From Adlercreutzia faecimuris (GTDB lineage Bacteria; Actinomycetota; Coriobacteriia; Coriobacteriales; Eggerthellaceae): a stretch of DNA of 64,000 nucleotides. How positions within the stretch are numbered: the stretch's first letter is position 1; every line of letters starts with the position of its first letter. The notes beneath the pieces were generated by a model. The model was not told the origin of the DNA. It saw only the letters and a program-made list of their open reading frames with translations, and searched no databases. The DNA lies in assembly GCF_022669055.1 (NCBI RefSeq), contig NZ_JAJMLW010000002.1, forward strand, positions 434,001 to 498,000, in the 5' to 3' direction. The position numbers and the translations under genes were made by a program. Positions 16,181-30,298 of the stretch are shown piece by piece.

Positions 16181-16483
16181 ATGGTGATTCTCATAACGGG
16201 CGCGAGCCACACGGGCAAGACGCTGCTGGCGCAGCGGCTGATGGAGCGCTACCGCTACCCGGTGCTCTCCCTCGACCTGCTGAAGATGGGGCTCATCCGC
16301 AGCGGGCAGACCGAGCTGACCCCCGAGGATGACGAGCTGCTCGTCCCCTACCTGTGGGGAATCGCCCGGGAGATGGTGAAGACGGCCATCGAGAACGGCC
16401 AGAACCTCATCGTCGAGGGCCGCTACATCCCCTTCGACTGGCAGGAGAACTTCGAGCCCGCATACCTGGACGAGAGTCGGTGA
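16181..16483 (+). pseudogene. P-loop kinase-like ATPase, 3' truncated
   Basis: The N-terminal 95 residues of a small P-loop phosphotransferase-like protein: MVILITGASHTGKTLLAQRL contains Walker A GASHTGKT, followed by LSLDLLKMGLIRSG and LIVEGRYIPFDWQENFEPAYL. Intact members should be roughly 200 residues; here the frame runs into DESR-stop where the sequence switches to the inverted tail of the flavoprotein gene (about 16478-16484). It lies 18 bases after the LuxR relic. The catalytic C-terminus is lost, so function is unlikely. Confidence 0.7.
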
Positions 16484-17768
16484 TGGTCTGCTGCAGCTTG
16501 CCGGCGGGGATGCCCAGGGCGGTCTCCAGCTCGGCGATGCTGCCCGCGCTCACCACCTGGTCCTCGAAGCCCGCGGGGATGCCGTGGTGCTCCTCGGTGA
16601 TGGCCTTGTTCTGGGCCGCGTCCCACACCATGTAGGTGTTGCGCGGGCGCTTGGGGCTGATCCAGCCGCCGTTGCTGGGCACGTGGCCGTGGCGGTTGTA
16701 GACGTCCTCGCGCAGGTAGCGCTCGCCGCCGTTGCCCACAACGATGACGCTGCCGGAGAGGTTGCGCAGGTCGTTGAAGGTTTTGGCGTGCTGGCCCAGC
16801 TCAACCACGAAGGAGATGCCGCCCGGGGCGAAGCAGTTGCCCTCGAAGGCCTCCATGTGCCACAGGTCGGCGCCCACGCCCATGGCCATCTTGATGCCGT
16901 CGCCCGTGTTGAACGTGGTGCCGGCGGGCGCGCTCTTGGTGAGGCCGAGGAAGTCCTCGACCATCTGCGGGTTGTTCTCGAAGCCGCCGCAGGTCAGCAC
17001 CACGCCGTTCAGGGCGCGCACGTTGACCGGCTTGCCCTCGCGCTCGATGGTGGCGCCGATGACGGTCTTGCTGACCGGGTCCTGATGCAGGCTCAGGGCC
17101 GGCGAACCGTACCACACGTCGATGTTGTCGGACATGCTGAGCACCTTGTCGCGGTACACCTTCCACAGGGCGGAGTTGCACACGTTGTCGCTGACGGTCA
17201 GCACGTGCAGCTCGTCGCCGCCCTCCAGCTCGGGGTACTCGGGAGCGAACATGCCGATGAGGGGCTGCTTGGAGGAGTCGTACTTCCAGTCGAGGAAGTT
17301 CTCCTCCGACACGCCGAAGAAGTCGCGCAGCAAGTCGCGCGTCTGCGTGAGGCCCTCGGCGTAGACGTCGTAGAGCTCCTCGTCCACGTCGAAGTCGGCG
17401 GCCATGGCCTTGTTGCAGGCCAGCATGGCGTCCTTGTTCTCCGATCACAGGATGATCTGGCCGCAGAAGCGGGTGTTGCCGCCCTCCATGCCGTTGGGGG
17501 CCTTGTCGACCAGCAGCACCTTCGCGCCGGCGTCGGCCGCGTAGCAGGCAGCCACGGCACCCGCGGCGCCGAAGCCGATGACGATGACGTCGTACTCGCC
17601 GTCCCAGGCGATGGTGTCGGCGAACGTGTAGGCGCCATCCTTGGCACCCGTGCCCGCCAGCGCGGCGCCCCTCTGCTTCGGAGCGCACCCAGCCAGGGCG
17701 CCCATGCCGGCCAGAGCCGCCACGCCCGCGGTTCCCGTCAGAAATTGACGGCGTGAGACAGTGCCCAT
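16484..17768 (-). pseudogene. Tat-exported flavocytochrome-c-like FAD reductase, stop codon and truncation
   Basis: It starts MGTVSRRQFLTGTAGVAALA at ATG 17768 (AAGGAGG upstream): a Tat lipoprotein-type signal (SRRQFL, then AGCAP). The FAD-binding motif VIVIGFGAAGAVAACYAADA follows, with an NTRFCGQIIL block. At 17445-17447 an in-frame TGA interrupts IL-stop-SENKDAML; homologues would be expected to have Trp (TGG). The second half continues to LQQTITD and is cut at about 16484, where the P-loop gene begins in opposite orientation. Such enzymes reduce fumarate-like or other organic acceptors using electrons from a membrane cytochrome. This copy lacks its C-terminal FAD/substrate part and is not functional. 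Confidence 0.85.
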
Positions 17769-17897
17769 GTTTCCTCCTTGCTTTCGTGTGATAGAAGATA
17801 TAAGCGGCCGGCCTCGTCTGGGGCCGTGCCATCGCGTCAGAGCTTCCCCCTCCGACGCCACGCATCCTACCAAGCGCGAGGGCGTCAGCGTGAGAGG

Positions 17898-17967
17898 TAA
17901 CCGGGGGTTAATGGGGTGAAGAATTCGCTAACCCAGGTGTTGCACTGTCACTAACCCAGGGGGGTTA
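17898..17967. promoter_or_regulatory. LuxR operator candidates between divergent genes
   Basis: Three related sites lie in the divergent promoter region: palindrome TAACCGGGGGTTA (17898-17910), half-site TAACCCAGG (17929-17937) and palindrome TAACCCAGGGGGGTTA (17952-17967). TTGCAC and TATAAA nearby could be a plus-strand promoter with a long spacer. The repeated TAACCC motif is a good candidate for the binding site of the adjacent LuxR regulator. Confidence 0.55.
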
Positions 17968-18035
17968 TAAAGTTGTTCCTGTCCACCCACTGCGTTCTGT
18001 GGTTCTATGAGCGCACACGAAGGAGGTGAATGAAC

Positions 18036-19484
18036 ATGGGTCGCTCGAATTCCGCCGCGCAGGCGCTGGAGACGAGGTTCGTCCAGCAGTTTGCCGCAGA
18101 GGGGTCCGTGAGCCTTTTCGTCGGGCTCGCCTGCAACCTCGCCTTCGCCGGCCAGGTATTCTTCTGACCTGCCATGTGGCATACCTCCGTGTTCACCATC
18201 TCCTACACCGATGCCAGCTACGTCGGCCAGCTCATCGGCGCCCTGGCGCTGATCGTCTACTTCAGGCAGACCGGCCGCACCGCGCCGGATCGCGCGACCC
18301 TGTGGGCCAGCGCCCTGACGGTGCAGCTCACGCTCGTCGCGTACTTCATCTTCTTCCAGTACAGAGTGGACGTGCCCGACCTCGTCCACTGGCTCTTCGG
18401 CGCGCTGTTCGGTGCCTACCTGCCCATCACGCTCGTCGCGTGGATCGGGCTCTTCATCGGGGCCAAGCCCTCGCACGTCATGTGGGACATCATGCTCTCG
18501 GCCATGTTCGCCGCGTTCGTCATCTGGCTCTTCTCCGGACTCGACGAGCTGAAGATCTGCGTCTGCATGGGCATCCTCATCGTGGCCGCCACGGCCATCC
18601 TCACCCAAAAGCTCCACGCGTAGCAGGCCCCGGCCCTCGACGCCGGGCAGGCGGAGACGCGGTGGGAGTACTCCTACTCGGCGCCCGCGACGTTCCTCTT
18701 CAGCGTGGCGTTCGTCATAGCGGTCTCGTTCGCCGGCGTCGACGGCGAGCGCGCCGCGTTCTCGACGGGGGCCTTCTTCGCGCCGATGCTCGTCGTGTGC
18801 GTGCTCCTGCTGTTCGTCAACCAGGTGGGCTTTCCCCTCTCGAGCGTGGCTGTGCCGGCAATCGTCACAGCCACCATCGCGGCATCGTCGATGCACTTCG
18901 ACCCGGCACTCTCGTTCGACATCGCGGCCTTGGGCATGTTCCTGTTCCTCGCCTTCGCCGTGGTGCTGCTCTGCTCGAGCGACTTCGGCGAGAGGCAGCG
19001 GCAGATACGCGAGTTCCTCTTCCTGATGGTCGCCTTCGCGAGCGGCTGCCTCGTCGGGCGCGTCATCGTCGCGGCCTGCGTCGCCTGGGCCGGCGGCTTC
19101 GCCTCTGAGGCGCTCGTCCTCGTCTCGATCGTCGCGGCGTTCACCGCCATGATCATCCTCATCCGCAAGGGCGTCACCCAGCAGAAGGCCCAGCAGCTTT
19201 TCAAAGCCGAGGAGGCCGAGACGGCGGCCCACGACAAGGAGGCCTCCTATCAGGTCAAGATAGACGACGTCGTCGAGCGCCACGGCATCGGCAACCGCGA
19301 GAGAGAAGTGCTCGAGCTTCTCCTGGAAGGCAATTCGGCGAGCGAGGTAGCGCGAAGGCTTGTGATAGTGAACGGCACGGCGAAGTCCCATATCCGCCAT
19401 GTCTACAAGAAGCTCGGCATCCACAACCGAGACGAGCTCTTCGCGATCTTCTCCCTCGACGATCCCCTACGACACCGAGACTAA
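18036..19484 (+). pseudogene. LuxR-family regulator with multi-helix membrane domain, two in-frame stops
   Basis: One reading frame runs from ATG 18036 (AAGGAGGTGA upstream) to 19484. It encodes about 12 membrane helices and a C-terminal LuxR HTH (IGNREREVLELLLEGNSASE, GTAKSHIRHVYKKLGIHNRD). Two stops interrupt it: TGA at 18165-18167 (VFF-stop-PAMWHTS, probably an ancestral TGG) and TAG at 18621-18623 (LHA-stop-QAPAL, one C-to-T change from CAG). No frameshift is present, so decay is recent. These regulators normally control the neighbouring flavoprotein; here both partners carry stops. Whether the fragment from 18705 is translated is unknown. Confidence 0.85.
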
Positions 19485-19658
19485 CCCCGAGGACAGGGCT
19501 GGGCGTCCGACGCGTGCTTCCCCCACGCGAAGGCGTCATGCGGCCCGAGACCTCGATTCCAAAGAAAGGGGGCGCCCCTACGCCCCCGCCACCGAGCGCC
19601 GCCGCAGGCGATGCCTGCCCGACGGCGCCCCGAGAAAAGAAACCAAGGAGGTACAGGA

Positions 19659-20390
19659 ATGAACGAGGAAACCAAGGTGAAGGCCACCGAGGAGGCGGCG
19701 GCTGGCGCCGACGCCAAGGCCGCTGGCGCCGCCCCGAAGAGGAAGGGGAAGCGCTGGCCGGTCGTGGTCGGCGTGGTCGCGGTCATCCTGGTGGCGGCCG
19801 GCTCCGGCTTCTGGGTGTGGCATGAGCAGCCGAGCTTCTGCAACGCCATCTGCCATACGTCGATGGATCCCTATAACGAGACCTACGACCAGGCCGACGG
19901 CGTGACCGGCGTCGACAAGTGGGGCAACGAGGTGTCCAACACCCACGCCATGCTCGCCGTCTCGCACAAGACCGCCGTCGCCGACGGCGGCGCGGACGCC
20001 ACCTGCATGTCCTGCCACGTCCCGCAGCTGAGCGAGCAGGTGTCCGAGGGCATCGCCTGGCTCACCGGCGACTACTACGCCGAGCTCGACGAGCGCTCGC
20101 TCGACGACCTGACGGAGGCCCGCGCCATCCCCAACGATGAGTTCTGCATGAACGAGGCCTGCCACGTCAACGAGGACGGCACGGTCATGACCCGCGACGA
20201 CCTGATCGCCCTGACCGCCGACTACGAGCGCAACCCGCACGTGGCCGAGCATCAGGAGTACGACTGCGGCACCTGCCACAAGGCGCACCGCGCCTCCGTG
20301 GTCGAGTGCTCGCGCTGCCACACCGACACCGAGATCCCCGAGGGCTGGCTGTCGGTCGACCAGGCCAAGAAGCTGGACATGCCCGCGTAA
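19659..20390 (+). CDS. Membrane-anchored multihaem cytochrome c (cytochrome c3/NapC-like)
   Basis: Transfers electrons from the membrane menaquinone pool to extracytoplasmic reductases. A ~30-residue cytoplasmic Ala/Lys-rich N-terminus is followed by one membrane anchor (VVVGVVAVILVAAGSGFWVW) and an exported domain. Five possible haem sites are seen: CNAICH (CX3CH), CMSCH, CMNEACH (CX4CH), CGTCH and CSRCH. Three are classical CXXCH and two have wider spacing. The total is 243 residues. The start is ATG 19659 after AAGGAGG. The layout resembles Cgr1-type cytochromes that serve flavoproteins in Eggerthella. Its probable partner, the flavoprotein at 17.7 kb, is broken, so it may serve enzymes encoded elsewhere. 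Confidence 0.85.
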   Translation: MNEETKVKATEEAAAGADAKAAGAAPKRKGKRWPVVVGVVAVILVAAGSGFWVWHEQPSFCNAICHTSMDPYNETYDQADGVTGVDKWGNEVSNTHAMLAVSHKTAVADGGADATCMSCHVPQLSEQVSEGIAWLTGDYYAELDERSLDDLTEARAIPNDEFCMNEACHVNEDGTVMTRDDLIALTADYERNPHVAEHQEYDCGTCHKAHRASVVECSRCHTDTEIPEGWLSVDQAKKLDMPA

Positions 20391-20409
20391 GCATACGCTG
20401 ACGAGAGCA

Positions 20410-20443
20410 AGCGGGGCCCCGCGCCAAAGCGCGGGGCCCCGCT
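20410..20443 (+). terminator. GC-rich hairpin after cytochrome gene
   Basis: AGCGGGGCCCCGCGC-CAAA-GCGCGGGGCCCCGCT is a perfect 15-bp stem 20 bases after the stop codon. There is no T-run, so termination would rely on the very stable stem. Confidence 0.65.
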
Positions 20444-20481
20444 GCGTGTTGGGGGGAGTGACGAGCGGGCTTGTTGGGTGC

Positions 20482-20688
20482 CGCGCAGAACTCGTTCCCA
20501 AATTGGCCAAAATCGTCGGTTTGACGACGAGGCGCCAGGAGCGCGTGAGCGAGGGCGCGGCAAAAGCCCAGGTCGCAGAGGACGATTGGGCGGATGAGGG
20601 GCGAAAAGGGAGCGAGCGAGAGCTCCCTAGGCGGGGAATCCGTCGTCAAACCGGCTTTTTTGGCCAATTTAGCCGCGGATCTCGCACG
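20482..20688. repeat. ~200-bp inverted-repeat element, copy 1
   Basis: The ends are an imperfect ~57-base inverted repeat. The inner 30 bases of the arms (20500-20529 and 20641-20670; ending TTGACGACG and starting CGTCGTCAA) differ at three positions. Between them is the motif GGCAAAAGCCCAGGTCGC, shared with the other copies. No ORF is supported. It is related to 31212-31407 and 40633-40839. Confidence 0.85.
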
Positions 20689-20857
20689 GCGCCGTACCGC
20701 AGGCCGGCGCTGTCACCCGGGGGCCGCGTTATCACGAGGATCGTCACGGCCGCGCGGGCGCAGCGGGGCTCGGCCGGTTGCGCAGCGCTCGGCGTCTCAG
20801 GCGCTGACGCGGGCGTGGTATCCTTGGGGCCGAGCAAGCACAACCCAAGGAGGGCCC

Positions 20858-21355
20858 GTGACCGCCGCTACCACCACCATCTTCTCCCTCGTCGAGCACC
20901 CCGAGGCCACCGAGCGGGCGGCGGCGTGGTTCTCGGATAAGTGGGGCCTGCCCGCCGAGGCCTACCGCGAGAGCATCGAGGCGTCGCGCGCGGACGCGCC
21001 CGTGCCCCAGTGGTACCTCGTCTGCGAGGGCGACGACCCGGCCGGGGCGCCCATCGCCGGGTGCGGCATCATCGACAACGACTTCCACGACCGCCCCGAC
21101 CTGGCGCCGAACCTCTGCGCCCTCTACGTGGAGGAATCGCACCGCGGTCGCGGCTTGGCCCGCGCGCTGCTCGACCACGCCCGCGCCGAGGCATCACGCC
21201 ATGGCCTGGACCGCCTCTACCTGGTGACCGACCACGACCGCTTCTACGAGCGCTGCGGCTGGGAGTACCTGGGCGACGCCCACGAGGATGACGGCACGCC
21301 CATCCGCCTCTACGGCGCCGACACGCTGCCGCCCTCAGCCCCGACCGAGCGGTAG
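20858..21355 (+). CDS. GNAT-family N-acetyltransferase
   Basis: Acetyl-CoA-dependent acyltransferase with unknown substrate. The core motif LCALYVEESHRGRGLARALL holds the RGRGLA pyrophosphate-binding loop, and DRLYLVTDHDRFYERCGWEY is the usual last strand-helix. Pro/Ser-rich tail. The start is GTG 20858, with CAAGGAGGG upstream, giving 165 residues. The last 46 bases overlap the end of the convergent sensor gene on the other strand. Confidence 0.85.
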   Translation: MTAATTTIFSLVEHPEATERAAAWFSDKWGLPAEAYRESIEASRADAPVPQWYLVCEGDDPAGAPIAGCGIIDNDFHDRPDLAPNLCALYVEESHRGRGLARALLDHARAEASRHGLDRLYLVTDHDRFYERCGWEYLGDAHEDDGTPIRLYGADTLPPSAPTER

Positions 21356-22128
21356 GCGCCGTTGCGCTCCACGGCCAGCTGGGCCTGGGCCAGCACGAAG
21401 GACACGAGCGCCAGGTCGGCCTGGTCGAGGTCGGCCTGAGAGCAGTCGACGGCCACCACGCCCAGGGTGCGACCGCGCATGCCGAAGGGCAGGAACTTCT
21501 CGGCCCCGTCGCGGTAGCCCAGCTCACCGCGACCCGTGGGACAGTGTTGCTGGTAGCACTCCAGGGCGGCCTCGCCGCGCTCGGGCCCGGGCTCGCCGAG
21601 GACGATCTCCACCGGCCGCCCCAGGGACGCCGCGAGGAACTCCTGGGCCGCCTGGCACGCCCCCTCGGCGGTGTCGCTGTCCACCAGCTCGGCCCCCAGG
21701 CGGTTGACCCGGCGCAGGGCAGCGGCCGTCCGCTCGGCCGCGGACACCTGGCGGCGCATGCGGTGGGTGACCACGCCCATGATGAGCGCCACCACCAGGA
21801 AGATGACCAGGGCCACCACGTCGGTGTAGCTCAGCACCTTCAGCTGGTAGAGCGGCTCGGTGAACAGGTAGTCGTAGGACACCAGGTAGCCCAGCCCCAG
21901 CACCGCGCCCCACAGGCCGGAGTCCGACTCCAGGCTGGCGATGAGGATGCCCAGGACGAACAAGGGGAACACCACAAGGGGGCTGACGGCCATGAGGGAG
22001 AACCCCCACACCGCCGCCATGCCCGCGCCGTAGAGCAACGCGACGATGGCGATGTTGCGGACCAGAAGCCGTCCCCGGCACCGCCAGGCCGCCGACCGCA
22101 CGGCCCTCGCCTGCGCGCTATCGCCCAT
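21310..22128 (-). CDS. KdpD-like sensor protein without kinase domain (DUF4118-GAF)
   Basis: The N-terminal half has four membrane helices (about residues 20-40, 45-65, 75-95, 105-125) in the arrangement of the DUF4118 domain of KdpD, including LESDSGLWGAVLGLGYLVSYDYLFTEP (present as LESDSGLWGAVLG and YLVSYDYLFTEP). A short coiled linker and a GAF domain follow, ending FVLAQAQLAVERN. KdpD would continue with a histidine kinase; here the protein stops at 272 residues, shortly after the GAF. It overlaps trkH by 11 bases and is the last gene of the potassium-uptake operon. It may sense turgor, K+ or a nucleotide and act on TrkH/TrkA directly. The start is ATG 22128 after AGGAGGTG. Confidence 0.75.
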   Translation of the reverse strand: MGDSAQARAVRSAAWRCRGRLLVRNIAIVALLYGAGMAAVWGFSLMAVSPLVVFPLFVLGILIASLESDSGLWGAVLGLGYLVSYDYLFTEPLYQLKVLSYTDVVALVIFLVVALIMGVVTHRMRRQVSAAERTAAALRRVNRLGAELVDSDTAEGACQAAQEFLAASLGRPVEIVLGEPGPERGEAALECYQQHCPTGRGELGYRDGAEKFLPFGMRGRTLGVVAVDCSQADLDQADLALVSFVLAQAQLAVERNGAYRSVGAEGGSVSAP

Positions 22129-23662
22129 GGCGAACACCTCCTAGGAGAAACGACAGCAGGGCACCGGCCCCCATGAACAGGGGAATGATCTCCAGACGCC
22201 CCAGCAGCATGCCCACCGACCCGATGATAAGCGCCGCAGCCCCCGAATCCGGGCCGAGGAACCCCGTCCCCACCCCCGTGTTGCCCAGGCAGGACGCGAA
22301 GTCGAACGCCGCCTCCTGCAGGGTGGCACCGCAGAGGATGAACAGGAACGTCCCCACCGCGAACACGAGAAAGTAGAGGGCCACGAAGGCCCGGGCCTCG
22401 GCCACGTCGTCGGCAGTGAGCACCGTGCGCTTGCCGAACCGGTTGATCTTGACGCTGGTGATGTGGCGCTTGCTCCCGTAGCGGCTGCGGAGCGTCTGGG
22501 CCAGCCCCAAGGAGGCCACGGCGACGCGGTAGATCTTGATGCCGCCCGAGGTGGAGCGCGCCTCGGCCCCGCTGAACATCAGGAGCATGAACAGGAACAG
22601 CAGCGCGGGCCCCATGGCGGCGAAGGAGGGCACGGTCTGGAACCCCGTGGAGGTGAGCACCGACACCACCTGGAACAGCCCGTCGCGCAGGGCGTCGCCG
22701 GCCCCGTCGCTGATGCCCCGGGCCCAGAACAGCCCGCCCACCACCAGGGTGCCCACGGCGATGATGCCGAAGTACAGCGGCGTCTCGATGTGGGTGGCGA
22801 ACGCCTTGAACTTGCCCCTCATCAGCAAGAACAGCAGGAGGAAGTTCATGCCGCCGGCTATCATGAGGACGACGGTGACAAGCTCGATGGCCGGACTCTG
22901 CCAGAAGGCGAGGCTCTCGGGATGGGTGGCGAACCCGGCCGTGGACACCGCGCACATGGAGATGTTGACGGCATCGAAGGGCGTCATGCCCGCGATGACG
23001 TAGGCCACGGCCCCGACGGCGATGATGCCGGTGTAGATGAGGAGGATGAGCCGGGCGGTCTTCGCCGAGCTGGGCAGGAGCCGGTCGGTGTGCCCCTCGG
23101 CGTTGTAGACCCCCAGGCCGCCCGTCCCCGTGACCACGCAGGTGAGGATGAGCACGAGCCCGACGCCGCCGAGGTAGCAGGTGAGGCTGCGGTGGAACAG
23201 GAAGACGGCCGGGCACGTCGCCACGTCCACCACGCTCAGGCCGGTGGTGGTGAGCCCGCTCGTGGCCTCGAACACGGCCTGAACGGGGGTGAGCAGGCCG
23301 GCAACCACGAAGGGCGCGGCGTAGACGACCACCGCGATCACCCAGATCAGCAGCGTGCAGACGGCCGCCTGGCGCCGGGAGAGCGGCACGGCGCGGGCCG
23401 GCCAGGCGCTAGCGAAGCGCAGGAGGTAGCCCAGGGCCATGGCGGCCAGGCTCGGGAAGATGAAGCAGGGAGCCAGGGGCACCTCGTCAGGATGGAGCCA
23501 CAGCACGGCCAGGGGCGCGAAGCCGGCCAGGCCGATGAACAGCGAGGCGGTGCCGACGTAGCGGGCCACCGGCGAGAGCGCGCGCGACCCGCCGCCCCCG
23601 GGAAGCCCGAGGGGCAGGGACGCAGGCAGGTCAGAGGGGCCGCGGGACACCATGGGCGTCAT
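22118..23662 (-). CDS. trkH: TrkH/KtrB-type potassium uptake channel subunit
   Basis: Ion-conducting membrane subunit for K+ uptake, gated by the RCK proteins encoded just upstream. It has 514 residues with about 10 helices and four pore-like repeats; filter segments include ATSGLTTTGLSV, CAVSTAGFATH, VLTSTGFQTVP and CLGNTGVGTGF, each with a central Gly. The start is ATG 23662 with GGAAGGA upstream; the longer frame to 23884 overlaps the previous gene and is not used. It overlaps the upstream RCK gene by four bases (ATGA), so production is coupled. Confidence 0.92.
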   Translation of the reverse strand: MTPMVSRGPSDLPASLPLGLPGGGGSRALSPVARYVGTASLFIGLAGFAPLAVLWLHPDEVPLAPCFIFPSLAAMALGYLLRFASAWPARAVPLSRRQAAVCTLLIWVIAVVVYAAPFVVAGLLTPVQAVFEATSGLTTTGLSVVDVATCPAVFLFHRSLTCYLGGVGLVLILTCVVTGTGGLGVYNAEGHTDRLLPSSAKTARLILLIYTGIIAVGAVAYVIAGMTPFDAVNISMCAVSTAGFATHPESLAFWQSPAIELVTVVLMIAGGMNFLLLFLLMRGKFKAFATHIETPLYFGIIAVGTLVVGGLFWARGISDGAGDALRDGLFQVVSVLTSTGFQTVPSFAAMGPALLFLFMLLMFSGAEARSTSGGIKIYRVAVASLGLAQTLRSRYGSKRHITSVKINRFGKRTVLTADDVAEARAFVALYFLVFAVGTFLFILCGATLQEAAFDFASCLGNTGVGTGFLGPDSGAAALIIGSVGMLLGRLEIIPLFMGAGALLSFLLGGVRHGR

Positions 23663-24171
23663 CCCCGATCCTTCCCGAGGAGGTGCCATGAGCCGAGCAG
23701 CGGCCTCGCCTCGCCAAGCCCGTCGCGGGCCGCGCCGTCGCCGGCGGGGCCGGGGGCGCCGTTGGCGGGCACCTCGGCCAGGGCGTCGCGGATGCCCTGG
23801 GCCAGGGCGGCGGTGCCGCTGATGGCGGCCGTCACGCCCAGCTGGCGGAACACACGCACGTTCTCGGGGTTCGCCACGATGCACAGCTGGCGGCGGATGC
23901 CCAGGAACTGCCTGGTCACCTGGCAGATGGCCAGGTTGTCGGCATCGCAGCCGGTGAGGGCCACCACCACGTCGAAGCCCTCCACGCCGGCGTCCTCCAG
24001 GACGGAGCGGCTGGTGCCGTCACCCCAGATCACCTCGTTGTCGTGACGGCTGGAGAGGTACTCGCAGAAGCCGCGGTCGCTGTTGATGGCCACTATCTCG
24101 TCGGCCACGTCGGCCAGGGCGCCCATGAGGTAGTCGGCGCGGGAGCGCCCGCCGACGATGACCGCCCTCAT
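23659..24171 (-). CDS. TrkA/KtrA-type RCK potassium channel regulator (second)
   Basis: A 170-residue cytoplasmic protein with a Rossmann-type RCK-N domain: MRAVIVGGRSRADYLMGALA, NSDRGFCEYLSS, VIWGDGTSRSVLEDAG and DVVVALTGCDADNLAI. The glycine loop is atypical (GGRSRAD rather than GxGxxG). The C-terminus is Gly/Ala-rich with no TrkA-C domain. It overlaps both neighbours by four bases. It probably forms a hetero-ring with the first RCK protein to gate TrkH through nucleotide binding. Confidence 0.85.
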   Translation of the reverse strand: MRAVIVGGRSRADYLMGALADVADEIVAINSDRGFCEYLSSRHDNEVIWGDGTSRSVLEDAGVEGFDVVVALTGCDADNLAICQVTRQFLGIRRQLCIVANPENVRVFRQLGVTAAISGTAALAQGIRDALAEVPANGAPGPAGDGAARDGLGEARPLLGSWHLLGKDRG

Positions 24172-24599
24172 CGCTCCCCCTCCGCCCGCGGCAGGCCCGT
24201 GATCTGGAAGAACTCCTCCTCGCAGATGCGGTGGGGACAGATGGGGTCGATGCCCCGCTGCTCCAGGATCTCCACCAGGGAGTCGTCGTCGACGACGGGC
24301 AGCACCTGGCGCACGCCAAGCACCTCGCTGGCCAACTCGGCCACCAGGAGGTTGACGGTGTCGCGGCCCGTCGCCACCACCAGGTGGGTGGCGCGCTCGG
24401 CGCCGCACTCCCGCAGGACCGACGCGCTGCTTCCGTCGCCGGTGACCGTCTCGCCGTCGAAGTCGTCGCCCAGGCGGTCGAAGGCGTCCTCGCGCATGTC
24501 CACGACGATGACGTCGCTGCCGCTGGCGGACAGCGACCGGGCCACCGCCGCCCCGAAGGCGCTGCAGCCCACCACTATGACTCGTGCTCTCCTTGCCAT
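24168..24599 (-). CDS. TrkA/KtrA-type RCK potassium channel regulator (first)
   Basis: A 143-residue RCK-N protein, first gene of the K+ uptake operon. VIVVGCSAFGAAVARSLSAS is the nucleotide-binding loop, VIVVDMREDAFDRLG contains the acidic end of the second strand, and VTGDGSSASVLRECGAE matches the NAD/ATP-binding family pattern. There is no TrkA-C domain. Having two different single-domain RCK proteins with one TrkH resembles the split CeuT/KtrA arrangements of Actinobacteria. Fifteen to twenty bases before ATG 24599 lies a purine-rich ribosome site (GGAGACGCAGG). Confidence 0.88.
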   Translation of the reverse strand: MARRARVIVVGCSAFGAAVARSLSASGSDVIVVDMREDAFDRLGDDFDGETVTGDGSSASVLRECGAERATHLVVATGRDTVNLLVAELASEVLGVRQVLPVVDDDSLVEILEQRGIDPICPHRICEEEFFQITGLPRAEGER

Positions 24600-24685
24600 G
24601 ACCTGCGTCTCCTTCAGCGCAATCTCACTGAGAACAGACTAGCGGCTCAAAGGCCCCGCCACGGCAAAGGATACGCGACTGTTTC

Positions 24686-25648
24686 CTAGGCGCCCGCCCG
24701 GCGCAGGGCAGGCTCGGCGAACACGGCGGCCCCGCGCTCGCGGGCCACCACCTGGCGGGCGGCCTGCAGGTGCAGCTGCACGGCGGCCTCGTCGCTGTGG
24801 CAGGTCTCCAGGAGCGCGTCGTAGACGAGGGGCGCCAGCCCCTCCACCAGCTCGCGGCCCTCGGCCGTGAGGGCCAGGGCCTTGGTGCGGCGGTTGTCGG
24901 CGTTGCGCTGCTTCAAGACGAGGCCCCGCTCCTCGAGCGCCTTGAGGGGCGCGGTCACGTCGCTGCTCCTCAGGAACAGGTAGGACGCCACCTGGGACGC
25001 GGTAGCCCCGGGCCCCAGGATGCGCAGGGCGGCCAGCACGCGGAACTGCGGCGTCTTCAGGCCGTAGCCGGCGAGCTTCGCGGCGGTGAGGGTGCGTGAG
25101 ATCATCACCGCGTCGAAGAAGGCGGTGTCCAGCCGGTGGCTCCCGTTCTCGATGCGCGAGGCGTGGTGGAGCGCCGCGGCGTTCGCGGAGCTGTCGAGGG
25201 CCACCCTCAACTGCTCGGGGGTGAGGTTGCGCCAGTAGCTGCGCAGGAACGCGCCCACATGGCGGTCGGCCCGGCCTATCTCCTCCACGCCGGCCGGGGT
25301 GAGCGCCAACGACACGACGCGCATGTCGTCGGGATCCTCGACGCGCGCCACCAGGCGGCCCTCCACCAGCCGGGGCATGGCGGCCGACACGGTGCTCGCG
25401 CAGACGCGCAGGTTGTCGGCCAGGTCGGTCGTGCGCAGCGTGCCGCCCTCCGCGCCCAGAAGGCGCAGCAGCATGCGGTACTGGAGCGTCGTGAGCGCGC
25501 AGTGCTCGGCGAGCACCTGGCTGATGGAGCGGAACAGCAGGTTCATCACGGTCAGGTAGTCCGACTCCCCCTCGAACGCGTCGAGGTGCCCCGGGTCCGA
25601 TCGGTCCTCCAGCCGGCGGCGGTGCGGGTCATGGCCCATAGCGCCCAT
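24686..25648 (-). CDS. Tandem double-MarR transcription regulator
   Basis: A single 320-residue protein that contains two MarR winged-helix domains. The first (about residues 35-160) has LTTLQYRMLLRLLGAEGGTL, LRVCASTVSAAMPRLVEGRL and DPDDMRVVSLALTPAG. The second (about 180-300) has LKTPQFRVLAALRILGPGAT, LRSSDVTAPLKALEERGLVL and NADNRRTKALALTAEG. MarR proteins usually dimerise, so this fusion may be a pseudo-dimer with two different recognition helices. It is divergent to the molybdoenzyme operon at 25.8 kb, its likely target. GGGGAGGAG precedes ATG 25648. Confidence 0.85.
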   Translation of the reverse strand: MGAMGHDPHRRRLEDRSDPGHLDAFEGESDYLTVMNLLFRSISQVLAEHCALTTLQYRMLLRLLGAEGGTLRTTDLADNLRVCASTVSAAMPRLVEGRLVARVEDPDDMRVVSLALTPAGVEEIGRADRHVGAFLRSYWRNLTPEQLRVALDSSANAAALHHASRIENGSHRLDTAFFDAVMISRTLTAAKLAGYGLKTPQFRVLAALRILGPGATASQVASYLFLRSSDVTAPLKALEERGLVLKQRNADNRRTKALALTAEGRELVEGLAPLVYDALLETCHSDEAAVQLHLQAARQVVARERGAAVFAEPALRRAGA

Positions 25649-25824
25649 CGCTCCTCCCCTCGCGGTCAGACGGCACAGTTAGTTCAATCACAATATTATC
25701 AATTAGACACATTGTCAACGAAGGATGCTTTACGGCCCCCAAGTCGCGGCTATGCTGGGGAATGACGGTCCTCGGCGTCTGACGAGCCCGGGGAGCGCGG
25801 CAAGCCTACGGAGAGGAGTTGCAC
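25649..25824. promoter_or_regulatory. Divergent promoter region, MarR gene / molybdoenzyme operon
   Basis: An AT-rich core (about 25677-25722), unusual for this genome, holds CAAT and ATTG half-sites around CAATATTATCAATTAGACAC and ends TTGTCAACG. It is the likely binding site of the double-MarR regulator and contains the start regions of both genes. A -10-like TATGCT lies near 25751. Confidence 0.5.
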
Positions 25825-28248
25825 ATGTCAGAGGAGTCGTTCGTCTACACGGCCTGCCCCGGATGGGGCGACCACGACTACTGCGCGCTCAAGACCATCG
25901 TGAAGGACGGGAAGATCGAGCGCATGGAACGCATCGTCTACTCGGCCCCCGAGGAACCCGACGGCCACATCTGCCAGAAGGGGTGCCTGGCCGGGCGCCA
26001 GCCCTACGACCCCAAGCGCCTGAAGGCTCCGCTCAAGCGCGTGGGCGAGCGCGGCAGCGGCATCTTCGAGGAGATCAGCTGGGACCAGGCCCTCGACGAG
26101 ATCGGCGAGAAGCTCTGCAAGATCCGCGACGAGCACGGGCCGTCCTCGGTGGTGCTATGGAACCTGGGCGCCGGCGTCCCCGCGCAGTACAGCTTCGAGA
26201 ACCTCATGCCGTTCCGCTTCGCCAACACCTTCGGCGTCACCGTGCCGCTAGGATCCATCGGCCTCGACAACGGCCCCTTCTACGCCGAGTTCTACAACGC
26301 CGGCAGCGAGTTCCCCCGCACCGTCATCGACCCGCGCATCATGGTGGGCACCGACCTCATCTACGTGTGGGGCTGCAATCCCATCGAGAACCAGATGCGC
26401 TGCGCCCAGAACCTCGTGCGCGCCCGCGAGGCCGGCGCCCGCATCGTCGACCTGGGCCTCATCTTCGACGGCACGGCCGGCTTCGCCGACGAGTTCGTGG
26501 CCATGAAGCCTGCCTCCGACGGCTACCTGGCCATGGCCATGGTGAACTACATCCTCGAGAACGACCTGCAGGACGACGCCTACCTGCTGGCCCGCACCAT
26601 CGCCGCCTACCTGGTCGACGACGAGACCGGCCAGCTGATCCGCGGTGAGGACGGCGGATCGTTCTACGTGTGGGACGCCGCCGCGGGCGCCCCGGCCCCG
26701 GTGGCGGCCAAGCGCGGGGCCTACCCCGAGGGCGCCGACATCCCGCTGCTGGGCACCTACGAGGTCGGCGGGCGGCGCTGCTCCACCGCGCTCCAGAAGC
26801 TCAAGGACGGCGCGGCGGAATACACCTTCGAGCTGGCCGCCGAGAAGTGCGGCATCAGCGCCGAGGACGCCGAGCGCCTGGCCCGCGACTGGGTAGAGGC
26901 CGAGAACGCCTTCATCCTCTCCGGCTACGGCCTGCGCTACCGTAACTCCAACGAGACCTACCGTCAGTTCCTGCTGCTGGGCGCCCTCACCGGTCGCCTC
27001 GGCAAGCCGGGCTCCGGCGTGTTCGAGGCGCTCCAGCTCCAGAGCTGGCCGCTCGTGTTCAACGACCTGCCCATCAGCTGCCCTGACGGCGTGGCCAGCG
27101 TGAAGTCGGTGCCCGTGCGCATGGCCGAGTGGTTCGCCCGGGCGGAGGCCGACGACAGCCCCTACAAGGCGCTCATCGTCTGCTCCGGCAACCCGGTGCA
27201 CCAGCAGCCCGACCGCCAGCGCTGGCTCGACGTGGTCCGCGACATGGAGCTGGTGGTGGACTACGACGTGTGGCTCACCGACACCGGCGAGATCGCCGAC
27301 TACGTGCTGCCCGACCTCATGTCCTTCGAGCGCGAGGACCTCATCACCGGCGCCTGCTACAACCACATCATCCTCCAGGAGCCGGCCATCGAGCCGCAGG
27401 TGGACGGCCATGAGCCGGTGTGGGTGTTCAGCGAGCTGGCCAAGCGGGTGGGCCTGGGCGACTACTTCACCCTGGGCATCCCCGAGTACATCGACATCCG
27501 CCTGCAAACCCAGTACCCGCTTGTGGCGGGCATCCAGCCTCCCGTGACCTATGAGCGCCTGAAGCAGGAGAAGATGATCCGCGCCGCCGCGCCGCCCGAG
27601 CCCAAGTACACCCCCTACCTCAACCCCGAGGAGGTCATGGACAACGAGACCGGCCGCATGGAGGTCATCTACGCCGAGAAGCTGGCTGACCTGGGCATGG
27701 CGGTGACCCGGGTGCTCGAGCCCAACAAGATCGGCAAGTCGGCCACCTACCCCTACCAGCTGTTCACGGGCCGTCAGCGCTTCTTCATGCAGTCCAGCTT
27801 CACCGACGACCCCATCACGGTGAAGCTCTCCGGCGGCACGCCCGCCACCCGCCTGAACCCGGCCCAGGCCGCGCGTCTGGGACTCGCCGACGGCGACACC
27901 GTGGAGGTGTTCAACGACCGCGGCCACGTCATCACGCGCCTGGTGCTCGACGAGAGCGTTCCCGACGGCACCGTGCACGTGTGGTTCGGCTGGCGCCGCC
28001 GCCAGTTCGAGGAGGGCACCTACGCCGAGATCACCCACCAGTGCGCCGGCCAGGACTCCCAGGGCCCGCTCGAGGACAAGTGGTTCGCCGACTGGCTGGC
28101 CGCCGGCCACCATCCCAACCCCTACGTGGAGTCGATGAGCTCGCTCACGGGCTCGACCGACTGCTACTGGGACTCGTGGTGCGACATCCGCAAGTTCGAG
28201 GGCGAGCTCACCCCCAACCCGCAACAGACCATCGTGAAGGAGGCTTAA
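25825..28248 (+). CDS. Molybdopterin (bis-MGD) oxidoreductase, acetylene-hydratase/dehydroxylase-like
   Basis: An 807-residue member of the DMSO-reductase superfamily. The N-terminal Fe-S region is unusual: CPGWGDHDYC (residues 11-20) and ICQKGCLAGR replace the standard CxxCxxxC...C pattern. Molybdopterin segments include VVLWNLGAGVPAQYSFENL, LIYVWGCNPIENQ, ARIVDLG and, at the C-terminus, TGRQRFFMQSSF and LADGDTVEVFNDRGHV. No Tat signal is present, so the enzyme appears cytoplasmic. It forms an operon with a 4Fe-4S partner four bases downstream. Similar pairs in Eggerthellaceae include catechol dehydroxylases, but the substrate cannot be told from sequence. The start is ATG 25825 after GAGAGGAG. 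A MarR regulator is divergent. Confidence 0.85.
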   Translation: MSEESFVYTACPGWGDHDYCALKTIVKDGKIERMERIVYSAPEEPDGHICQKGCLAGRQPYDPKRLKAPLKRVGERGSGIFEEISWDQALDEIGEKLCKIRDEHGPSSVVLWNLGAGVPAQYSFENLMPFRFANTFGVTVPLGSIGLDNGPFYAEFYNAGSEFPRTVIDPRIMVGTDLIYVWGCNPIENQMRCAQNLVRAREAGARIVDLGLIFDGTAGFADEFVAMKPASDGYLAMAMVNYILENDLQDDAYLLARTIAAYLVDDETGQLIRGEDGGSFYVWDAAAGAPAPVAAKRGAYPEGADIPLLGTYEVGGRRCSTALQKLKDGAAEYTFELAAEKCGISAEDAERLARDWVEAENAFILSGYGLRYRNSNETYRQFLLLGALTGRLGKPGSGVFEALQLQSWPLVFNDLPISCPDGVASVKSVPVRMAEWFARAEADDSPYKALIVCSGNPVHQQPDRQRWLDVVRDMELVVDYDVWLTDTGEIADYVLPDLMSFEREDLITGACYNHIILQEPAIEPQVDGHEPVWVFSELAKRVGLGDYFTLGIPEYIDIRLQTQYPLVAGIQPPVTYERLKQEKMIRAAAPPEPKYTPYLNPEEVMDNETGRMEVIYAEKLADLGMAVTRVLEPNKIGKSATYPYQLFTGRQRFFMQSSFTDDPITVKLSGGTPATRLNPAQAARLGLADGDTVEVFNDRGHVITRLVLDESVPDGTVHVWFGWRRRQFEEGTYAEITHQCAGQDSQGPLEDKWFADWLAAGHHPNPYVESMSSLTGSTDCYWDSWCDIRKFEGELTPNPQQTIVKEA

Positions 28249-28251
28249 GCC

Positions 28252-28668
28252 ATGGCGTACAAGATGCTGGTCGACATCGACCGCTGCGTGGGATGCTGGA
28301 CCTGCGCGATGGGCTGCAAGGTGGGCAACCACCTGGACGACGACGTGTACCGCGTGGAGGTGGAGACCCACGGCTCGGGCCAGGGCATCGACCGCCCCGC
28401 CGGCGTGTACCCCGACCTGCACATGTGGTGGCAGCCGGTCTACCTGCCCAGCTGCACCTTCTGCGCGCCGCGCGTGGCCGAGGGCCTGCCCCCGTTCTGC
28501 GCCATGGACTGCCCCACCCAGGCGCTCGCCTTCGGCGACGCCGATGACGGGCAGTCCGCCTACGCCCAGGCCCGGGCGCGCGTGGAGGCGCGGGGCGCCC
28601 GCATCTGGGAGCTCGACTCCGCCGGCGCCGAGACCCGCGCCAGCGTGGAGTACGCGACGGCCCGCTAG
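28252..28668 (+). CDS. 4Fe-4S dicluster electron-transfer subunit
   Basis: A 138-residue ferredoxin-like partner for the preceding molybdoenzyme. The first cluster motif is CVGCWTCAMGC (residues 12-22); further Cys are in PSCTFCAPR and PFCAMDCPTQA. That makes eight Cys in the first 95 residues, enough for two cubane clusters. The C-terminal 40 residues are helical and Cys-free. No signal peptide is present, matching the cytoplasmic prediction for its partner. It starts four bases after the molybdoenzyme stop, preceded by GAAGGAGG within the end of that gene, so the two are co-translated. Confidence 0.9.
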   Translation: MAYKMLVDIDRCVGCWTCAMGCKVGNHLDDDVYRVEVETHGSGQGIDRPAGVYPDLHMWWQPVYLPSCTFCAPRVAEGLPPFCAMDCPTQALAFGDADDGQSAYAQARARVEARGARIWELDSAGAETRASVEYATAR

Positions 28669-28694
28669 GCCACGCGGCGCCCATCACCTGATCG

Positions 28695-28740
28695 GGGGAG
28701 CGGCCGGGGCATCTCGCCTCCGGCCGCTCCCCTTCTTCTT
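28695..28740 (+). terminator. Rho-independent terminator after molybdoenzyme operon
   Basis: GGGGAGCGGCCGG and CCGGCCGCTCCCC form a perfect 13-bp stem with a 12-base loop, followed by TTCTTCTTT. Confidence 0.85.
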
Positions 28741-28923
28741 TCCCGGCGCTAACCGGCAGGCCCAGGCGGCCCTACGCCTTGGCAACAGGAGCGAGCCGGG
28801 AATCAGCCGGGGCGCGGGGCGGGGCCATGCTGGGACGTAGCTGCAACCCCGCCGCCTCGCGCGCCCACTCCCGCCCTCGTTCGGGCCCGGGCCGAGAGGG
28901 GCCTGACCGAGAGAGGGGCCACC

Positions 28924-29883
28924 ATGTGCACCGGCATCCGCTTCACCGACCCTGAGGGCAACCTGTACTTCGGACGCAACCTCGACTGGACCGTCGGCTA
29001 CGGCCAGGAGGTGCTCGTCACCCAGCGCGGCTTCACCCACCCCGACTTCATGGAGGGCAAGGTGCCCACCCGCTACGCCGTCATCGGCATGGCCATCGCC
29101 CCCGAGGGCTGCCCGCTGTACCTGGACGTCATGAACGAGGAGGGCCTGGCCGTGGCCGGCCTCAACTTCCCCGGCTACGCCCAGTACGCCGACGCGCCGG
29201 AGGACGGCAAGGTCAACATGCCCGCCTATGCGTTCCCCTTCTACCTGGCCAGCCAGTGCAAGACCGTGGACGAGGCCGAGGAGGCGCTCAAGGACATCGT
29301 CATCCTCAACCAGGCCCCGAGCGACCAGTACGAGGTGGCCCTGCTCCACTGGTTCATCGCCGACAAGAACCGCTCCATCGTAGTTGAGTACCAGGCCGAC
29401 GGGATGCATGTCTACCACGACGAGCTGGACGTGCTGGCCAACCAGCCCACCTTCGCCTACCACCGCGAGAACGTCCGCAGCTACCTGGCCTGCACGCCGG
29501 ACTTCCCCGCCGACGCCCACTGGCGCGAGGCGACGCTTTCCCCCTACGGGTCCGGCGCCGGCATGCGCGGCATCCCCGGCGACTACTACTCGCCGTCCCG
29601 CTTCGTCCGCGCGGCCTACCTCAACGCCAACTACCCGGCCCAGGAGGGCGAGGAGGCCAACGTCAGCCGCCTGTTCCACACCCTCGGCGGCGTGGCCATG
29701 GCCCTCGGCGCGGCCAAGGTGTCCGACGGCGACTACGAGTACACCCTCTACACCAGCTGCTACTCCGGCCGCACCCGCACCTACTACTACAACACCTACG
29801 AGAACCCGGCCATCCGCGCCTACCCCCTCGACTCCGTCCCGCTGGACGGCGGCGTGGTGGTGAAGGTGCCTGCTACCCTGTAG
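28924..29883 (+). CDS. bsh: Choloylglycine/bile salt hydrolase (Ntn hydrolase)
   Basis: Cleaves the amide bond of conjugated bile salts or related N-acyl amides. After removal of Met1, Cys2 is the N-terminal nucleophile (MCTGIRF). Other family residues are present: the Arg and Asp of YFGRNLDW, the Asn of VLANQPTF and the Arg of YYSPSRFVRAAY. At 319 residues it has the usual BSH length, with no signal peptide (cytoplasmic). A single-gene unit with a terminator-like hairpin at its end. Penicillin acylase or acyl-homoserine-lactone acylase activity is a possible alternative in this family. A 72-base relic of a second copy occurs at 34663-34734. Confidence 0.9.
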   Translation: MCTGIRFTDPEGNLYFGRNLDWTVGYGQEVLVTQRGFTHPDFMEGKVPTRYAVIGMAIAPEGCPLYLDVMNEEGLAVAGLNFPGYAQYADAPEDGKVNMPAYAFPFYLASQCKTVDEAEEALKDIVILNQAPSDQYEVALLHWFIADKNRSIVVEYQADGMHVYHDELDVLANQPTFAYHRENVRSYLACTPDFPADAHWREATLSPYGSGAGMRGIPGDYYSPSRFVRAAYLNANYPAQEGEEANVSRLFHTLGGVAMALGAAKVSDGDYEYTLYTSCYSGRTRTYYYNTYENPAIRAYPLDSVPLDGGVVVKVPATL

Positions 29884-29890
29884 CGCCCCC

Positions 29891-29913
29891 CCCCGCGTCC
29901 CAACGACGCGGGG
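29891..29913. terminator. Bidirectional hairpin between convergent genes
   Basis: CCCCGCGTC-CCAAC-GACGCGGGG has a nine-pair perfect stem and lies between bsh and the convergent hypothetical gene. Confidence 0.6.
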
Positions 29914-29932
29914 CCCTCGTGCTGCGCTATGG

Positions 29933-30298
29933 CTACAACTCGACGCGACCGAACCTGGCGAGGATCTCGGTGGCGGCGGTGCAGGCGTCGCAGTCGCACC
30001 ACTTGGCGCCCTCGGCCTTGCGCTGCTGCTGCGTCGCGAGCATCTGGGCGGCCGCCTCCTCACCGAACAGCTCCTTCGCGAGGCCCTCGGCGAAGGCGAT
30101 GACGCCGTCGATGGTGGTGGGACGCCCCTCCAGGATGTCGAGGAGCCGCTCGGTGGCCGCGTCGGCGGCGGCCTCTCCCCCGGCCTCGACGGCATCCCTC
30201 CACGCCAGCGCGGCGTCCTTGGTCACCTGCGTGCTCGCGCCCGACGTCGAGAGAACCTCGACACGCTCGGCGATGTAGTCGATCAGTTCCTTATCCAT
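29933..30298 (-). CDS. Conserved hypothetical protein with C-terminal Cys cluster
   Basis: A 121-residue acidic, mostly helical protein. The middle has TIDGVIAFAEGLAKELFGEE and the end AKWCDCDACTAATEILARF. The CDCDAC motif is a possible zinc or other metal site. Related Coriobacteriia proteins are sometimes labelled Hsp90, which I believe is a transferred misannotation, since no GHKL ATPase motif is present. The ribosome site GAGGCATG is just before ATG 30298. Single gene, convergent with bsh. Confidence 0.75.
   Translation of the reverse strand: MDKELIDYIAERVEVLSTSGASTQVTKDAALAWRDAVEAGGEAAADAATERLLDILEGRPTTIDGVIAFAEGLAKELFGEEAAAQMLATQQQRKAEGAKWCDCDACTAATEILARFGRVEL

Follow-up and report, generated by a model that had tools for sequence, protein, structure and literature searches.

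A KdpD-like sensor without its kinase half in the Trk operon of Adlercreutzia and related Eggerthellaceae

The window, the whole 64,000-nucleotide stretch of Adlercreutzia faecimuris DNA analysed here, contains a potassium uptake operon of four overlapping genes in the order RCK1-RCK2-TrkH-sensor (minus strand, 24599-21310). Comparison with related operons indicates that the ancestral operon had its own two-component system, RCK1-RCK2-TrkH-[DUF4118-GAF-HisKA-HATPase]-OmpR-type regulator. From it the kinase half of the sensor and the gene for the regulator were lost, with the membrane-GAF half kept in place. We infer, at about an even chance, that the retained membrane-GAF module acts post-translationally on the channel of its own operon.

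RCK1 (24168..24599, 143 aa), RCK2 (23659..24171, 170 aa), the K+ channel subunit TrkH (22118..23662, 514 aa) and the kinase-less KdpD-like sensor (21310..22128, 272 aa) are all encoded on the minus strand. The RCK1/RCK2 and RCK2/TrkH junctions overlap by 4 nt each and the TrkH/sensor junction by 11 nt, and Pfam recognises the channel subunit as TrkH while both RCK proteins contain TrkA_N and no TrkA_C, in agreement with a preliminary description of this DNA as a coupled four-gene operon with single-domain RCK proteins. The likely start of the sensor is the ATG at 22128, preceded by AGGAGG inside trkH; the list of open reading frames places it 9 nt further upstream, at a GTG (22137). A convergent GNAT acetyltransferase gene (20858-21355, plus strand) adjoins the sensor and overlaps its end by 46 nt. 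The upstream neighbour on the same strand as the operon (24686-25648) encodes a protein of 320 aa in which a single chain contains two MarR-type stretches, and the flanks within 16407-30195 contain, by eye, oxidoreductase-type frames (flavoprotein-like, multihaem cytochrome-like, and molybdopterin-type with a ferredoxin-like partner). No known RNA family reaches its gathering score in the window. The genome that bears the operon is 2.79 Mb, and its nearest relative in the sample is G001. On another contig, the same genome has a second kinase-less four-gene operon (L034, G000:C3:459963-462246), the sensor of which is 60% identical to that of the window; the trees place it on the A. hattorii/A. 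caecimuris side, apart from the window copy. It may be either an old duplicate or a copy acquired by transfer.

The first half of the sensor is a DUF4118 membrane domain (residues 30-133; 21730..22041, minus strand), which matches PF13493 at E 3.9e-14 (52.8 bits, cut-off 28.4) and is helical in the predicted model. The second half is recognised by no Pfam profile, GAF included, and its assignment rests on the predicted fold, modelled from a 23-sequence alignment with a mean pLDDT of 79.7 and a pTM of 0.55. Across residues 141-250 the ten-residue pLDDT means are at least 88. The top two PDB matches of the fold, 4y2f and 4qpr (E about 3e-5), are both structures of the GAF domain of KdpD from E. 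coli, and judged by the model the second half is a KdpD-type GAF domain (about residues 154-256; 21361..21669, minus strand), conserved up to an ERN motif. Pfam finds neither HisKA nor HATPase_c in the sensor, and neither an N-terminal KdpD domain nor a Usp domain at E<=1. The description of a sensor with DUF4118 and GAF domains that ends before any kinase thus holds. The NCBIfam KdpD model, NF007793, matches residues 25-179 with 33.1 bits, its cut-off being 1123.

Like E. coli KdpD of the KdpDE-KdpFABC system, the closest structural match of its GAF domain, the sensor has a DUF4118 membrane domain followed by GAF. Unlike E. coli KdpD, it lacks the N-terminal KdpD (serine kinase), Usp, HisKA and HATPase domains as well as a KdpE partner, and its gene sits in a Trk operon. 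TM/GAF/DHpCA histidine kinases are on record as separate chains (PMC11018627); this architecture is that of the kinase-plus relatives described below, whereas the window form is without DHpCA. The shortened KdpD versions given in section 8 of the same source keep the N-terminal KdpD domain, which the sensor does not, and the text of that section does not name a TM-GAF-only form. Among literature titles and abstracts we found no DUF4118-GAF protein without a kinase in a Trk operon, and nothing that combines Coriobacteri* with TrkH.

We searched 149 related genomes with the sensor, obtained matches in 40 and fetched their neighbours; public genomes were scanned with a pair of peptide patterns taken from the kinase-less clade, a scan that is biased towards that clade. 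The four-gene operon recurs in kinase-less form in 11 operons from 10 Eggerthellaceae genomes. These are the window, the second A. faecimuris copy, Enterorhabdus sp. P55, a MAG, an Adlercreutzia MAG and an Enterorhabdus MAG, together with Adlercreutzia hattorii, an Eggerthellaceae MAG, A. caecimuris, A. muris and strain D16-34. Another 13 related operons are kinase-plus, one of them, in G065, with a TGA-interrupted frame. The possibility raised in the preliminary description that all homologues have the kinase is therefore not borne out. HisKA and HATPase_c are present in the two kinase-plus relatives scanned with Pfam. A gene for an OmpR-type regulator comes next in 12 of the 13 kinase-plus operons, and tblastn finds none in G020 (L050). 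Contigs L041, L046 and L049 end within or near the start of the operon. In G065 (L040:7915-9384) the in-frame TGA follows 440 codons and lies in the ATPase part; the regulator is retained and the genome has KdpA. Perhaps this is a second independent kinase loss under way, or an assembly error.

A count independent of the sensor was obtained by searching 138 family genomes for TrkH (E<=1e-60). It returned 22 TrkH genes in 21 genomes, and a DUF4118 frame lies directly downstream of every one of the 22, short in 11 and with a kinase half in 11. The sensing half is never absent behind these TrkH genes, and the kinase half often is. Short DUF4118 proteins elsewhere were sought in 396 Actinomycetota genomes, at least 166 of which have DUF4118 matches, and 11 short-frame regions were chosen and fetched. 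A kinase stretch lies downstream in six, including L077, a frameshifted kinase gene, and five have no joined kinase (none in the fetched stretch of L074, L076, L079 and L082; kinases near and unjoined in L078). TrkH is beside the short frame in none of the 11 chosen regions. The L078 protein (L078:4140-4973, G296), from a distant actinobacterium, is a 277 aa DUF4118-GAF_3 protein without a kinase; it follows a kinase of KdpD type and a regulator, with a TrkA_N-TrkA_C protein nearby. It may be an independent kinase-less form.

A frameshifted kinase behind the sensor, which the preliminary description had put forward as an alternative, is ruled out: reading of all frames and tblastn turned up no kinase past the sensor stop. 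The tblastn match runs on beyond this stop in two species, A. caecimuris and A. muris (query 29-287), and no kinase motif was seen in the added sequence. A cognate regulator gene was not found in the window operon. Searches across the 10 kinase-less genomes led us to reject relocation of the kinase or regulator to another site. In six of them the kinase half of the sister form is matched best by a KdpD at 43-46% identity, with none at E<=1e-28 in the other four, and the best regulator match is at 43-46% in six and 38% in two, with none at E<=1e-40 in two. The same searches in the kinase-plus genomes G180 and G065 gave 59-60% for the kinase and 56-61% for the regulator. Every kinase-less homologue is conserved through the ERN at the GAF end and stops after an unconserved stretch.

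Trees were built from the common sensor part and from TrkH, each with 24 rows, with the root set on G020 and three long branches flagged. In both, the 11 kinase-less rows form one clade (support 100/99 for the sensor and 100/100 for TrkH), with G196 and G065 nearest to it. Kinase-plus operons occur in three families (f1, f2 and f9), and kinase-less operons in f1 only. On the simple reading of the single clade and this family distribution, the kinase was lost once, in a lineage of these gut bacteria that includes Adlercreutzia and Enterorhabdus.

The channel subunit itself carries a change specific to this clade. A TrkH profile of 21 homologues matches Vibrio parahaemolyticus TrkH (VpTrkH, 3pjz) at E 3.9e-70, and the two share the TrkH fold, the intramembrane gating loop and the conserved arginine of GRLEI, which is kept in the window TrkH (V. 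parahaemolyticus TrkH-TrkA, PMC6987127). Only one of the 87 TrkH columns that are invariant in 12 kinase-plus rows differs fixedly in the nine aligned kinase-less rows, a Gly to Arg change at window residue 369 (codon 22556..22558, minus strand) in the gating-loop motif GAEARSTSGGIK; nine more of these columns vary among the kinase-less rows. In a motif search, the loop position is Arg in all 11 kinase-less operons and Gly in all 13 kinase-plus operons. At 30 further TrkH/KtrB loci, namely the third TrkH of the same genome together with loci returned by a search of 60 Actinomycetota genomes, the position holds Gly in 20, Ser in two and Cys in three, and five are without the motif, so that Arg occurs in 0 of 25. 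By alignment, R369 corresponds to VpTrkH G350 (a manual count of positions), which lies beneath the filter in the intramembrane loop; there the kinase-less clade has Arg in place of the V. parahaemolyticus glycine. S237C, V246T and Y254W are further, near-fixed differences in TrkH. TrkH without the intramembrane loop is reported to be constitutively open (PMC6987127), and the gate of KtrB consists of the intramembrane loop and a conserved arginine (PMC5449183). Loop arginine and kinase loss map to one and the same branch. A single fixed gate change may nevertheless be due to chance or serve another purpose; a few of the 87 columns fall in the loop.

The RCK proteins exhibit no comparable change. 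RCK1 (profile of 18 homologues) has its best PDB match in 3l4b_A (E 2.4e-36) and RCK2 in 3l4b_C (E 8.1e-34), which makes RCK1 a relative of Thermotoga maritima TM1088A and RCK2 a relative of the N-terminal half of TM1088B. The two-subunit Trk system of T. maritima, TM1088A/TM1088B-TM1089, likewise has a TrkA split over two overlapping genes, together with TrkH (PMC4380455). Unlike TM1088B, RCK2 has no TrkA_C and instead has a variable linker and a short basic tail, and where PMC4380455 describes the T. maritima system it names no sensor gene with it. By length and alignment, RCK2 relatives with and without the kinase also lack TrkA_C, and in many of them a variable linker leads to a short basic tail; the shortening of RCK2 thus seems to predate the kinase loss. 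In neither RCK1 nor RCK2 is any kinase-plus-invariant column fixed to another residue in the kinase-less rows, which suggests that the partner of the sensor, if there is one, is TrkH rather than the RCK ring.

Could the short sensor simply be what is left of a dead kinase gene, a first half that is kept by its coupling to trkH or has not yet been lost? The kinase and regulator are gone and the C-terminal tails are unconserved, as such a remnant would have it. However, the frame is intact in all 11 kinase-less operons, and each copy ends behind GAF and none inside it. Pairwise dN/dS for six kinase-less pairs (Nei-Gojobori, own script; the values are rough because of strong G+C bias) is 0.12-0.36 for the membrane domain, 0.16-0.57 for GAF and 0.20-0.31 for TrkH, well below 1 in both sensor domains in six of six pairs. 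The 0.57 comes from one pair, the second A. faecimuris copy and A. hattorii, and indicates weaker constraint there. By these values the retained membrane-GAF module is under purifying selection, as TrkH is, and we regard a remnant as very improbable. The module might instead have a structural or assembly role, with the four-helix domain stabilising or inserting the TrkH-RCK complex and sensing gone. The membrane domain is conserved, and in every one of the 11 kinase-less operons trkH end and sensor start share 11 or 14 nt, both of which favour such a subunit. A mere anchor, however, would not need GAF, and the whole GAF fold is under similar constraint, which makes a purely structural role unlikely in our estimation.

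The short sensor might also work as partner or decoy of a different histidine kinase, such as full-length KdpD, in mixed dimers, in which case its output would still be transcription. KdpA is present in six of the 10 kinase-less genomes and in none of 12 kinase-plus genomes, and also in G065 with its interrupted kinase, so that presence of Kdp and lack of a Trk-linked kinase seem to coincide. The Trk-linked kinase may have become dispensable where a Kdp system brought its own KdpDE, but few independent events bear on this. Four kinase-less genomes are without KdpA, two of them 56 and 79% complete and two, G001 and G195, 97 and 99% complete. The latter two keep the kinase-less sensor with neither KdpA nor any other DUF4118 protein, and the short sensor must therefore work there without KdpD. 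In addition, the sensor and the KdpD of its own genome are about 25% identical over the matched part. We therefore consider a role as kinase partner or decoy to be quite unlikely.

Direct control of the channel, as the preliminary description proposed, is partly supported by these results. The kinase and regulator are gone, the module is selected and coupled to TrkH, the gate loop has changed, and near-complete genomes have no other DUF4118 protein; the step of contact with the channel we infer. That description had overlooked both the ancestral two-component system and the change in the TrkH gate. The transmembrane and GAF domains of KdpD are stated to sense K+ or membrane state, and a KdpD-family protein acting on a transporter has a precedent, in that KdpD phosphorylates KdpB directly (PMC11018627). 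By the same token, the kinase-less sensor would sense K+ or membrane state and pass the signal by contact to TrkH or the RCK ring, and would perhaps serve as a threshold-setting subunit for a gate altered by the added arginine. Against direct control, the tail after ERN is unconserved and so offers no obvious output peptide. Tentatively, and at somewhat less than an even chance, we propose that a two-component sensor, having cleanly lost kinase and regulator, was converted into a subunit dedicated to gating the K+ channel encoded beside it, that the gate arginine is the counterpart of this change, and that control thereby passed from transcription to the channel itself.

Sister lineages of one family that share the operon, some with the kinase and some without it, constitute a natural experiment. 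If the module does control the channel, a sensor kinase has been rewired to regulate its own transporter without phosphotransfer. The operon would then offer a compact system for K+ sensing by the KdpD membrane-GAF module, apart from kinase output.
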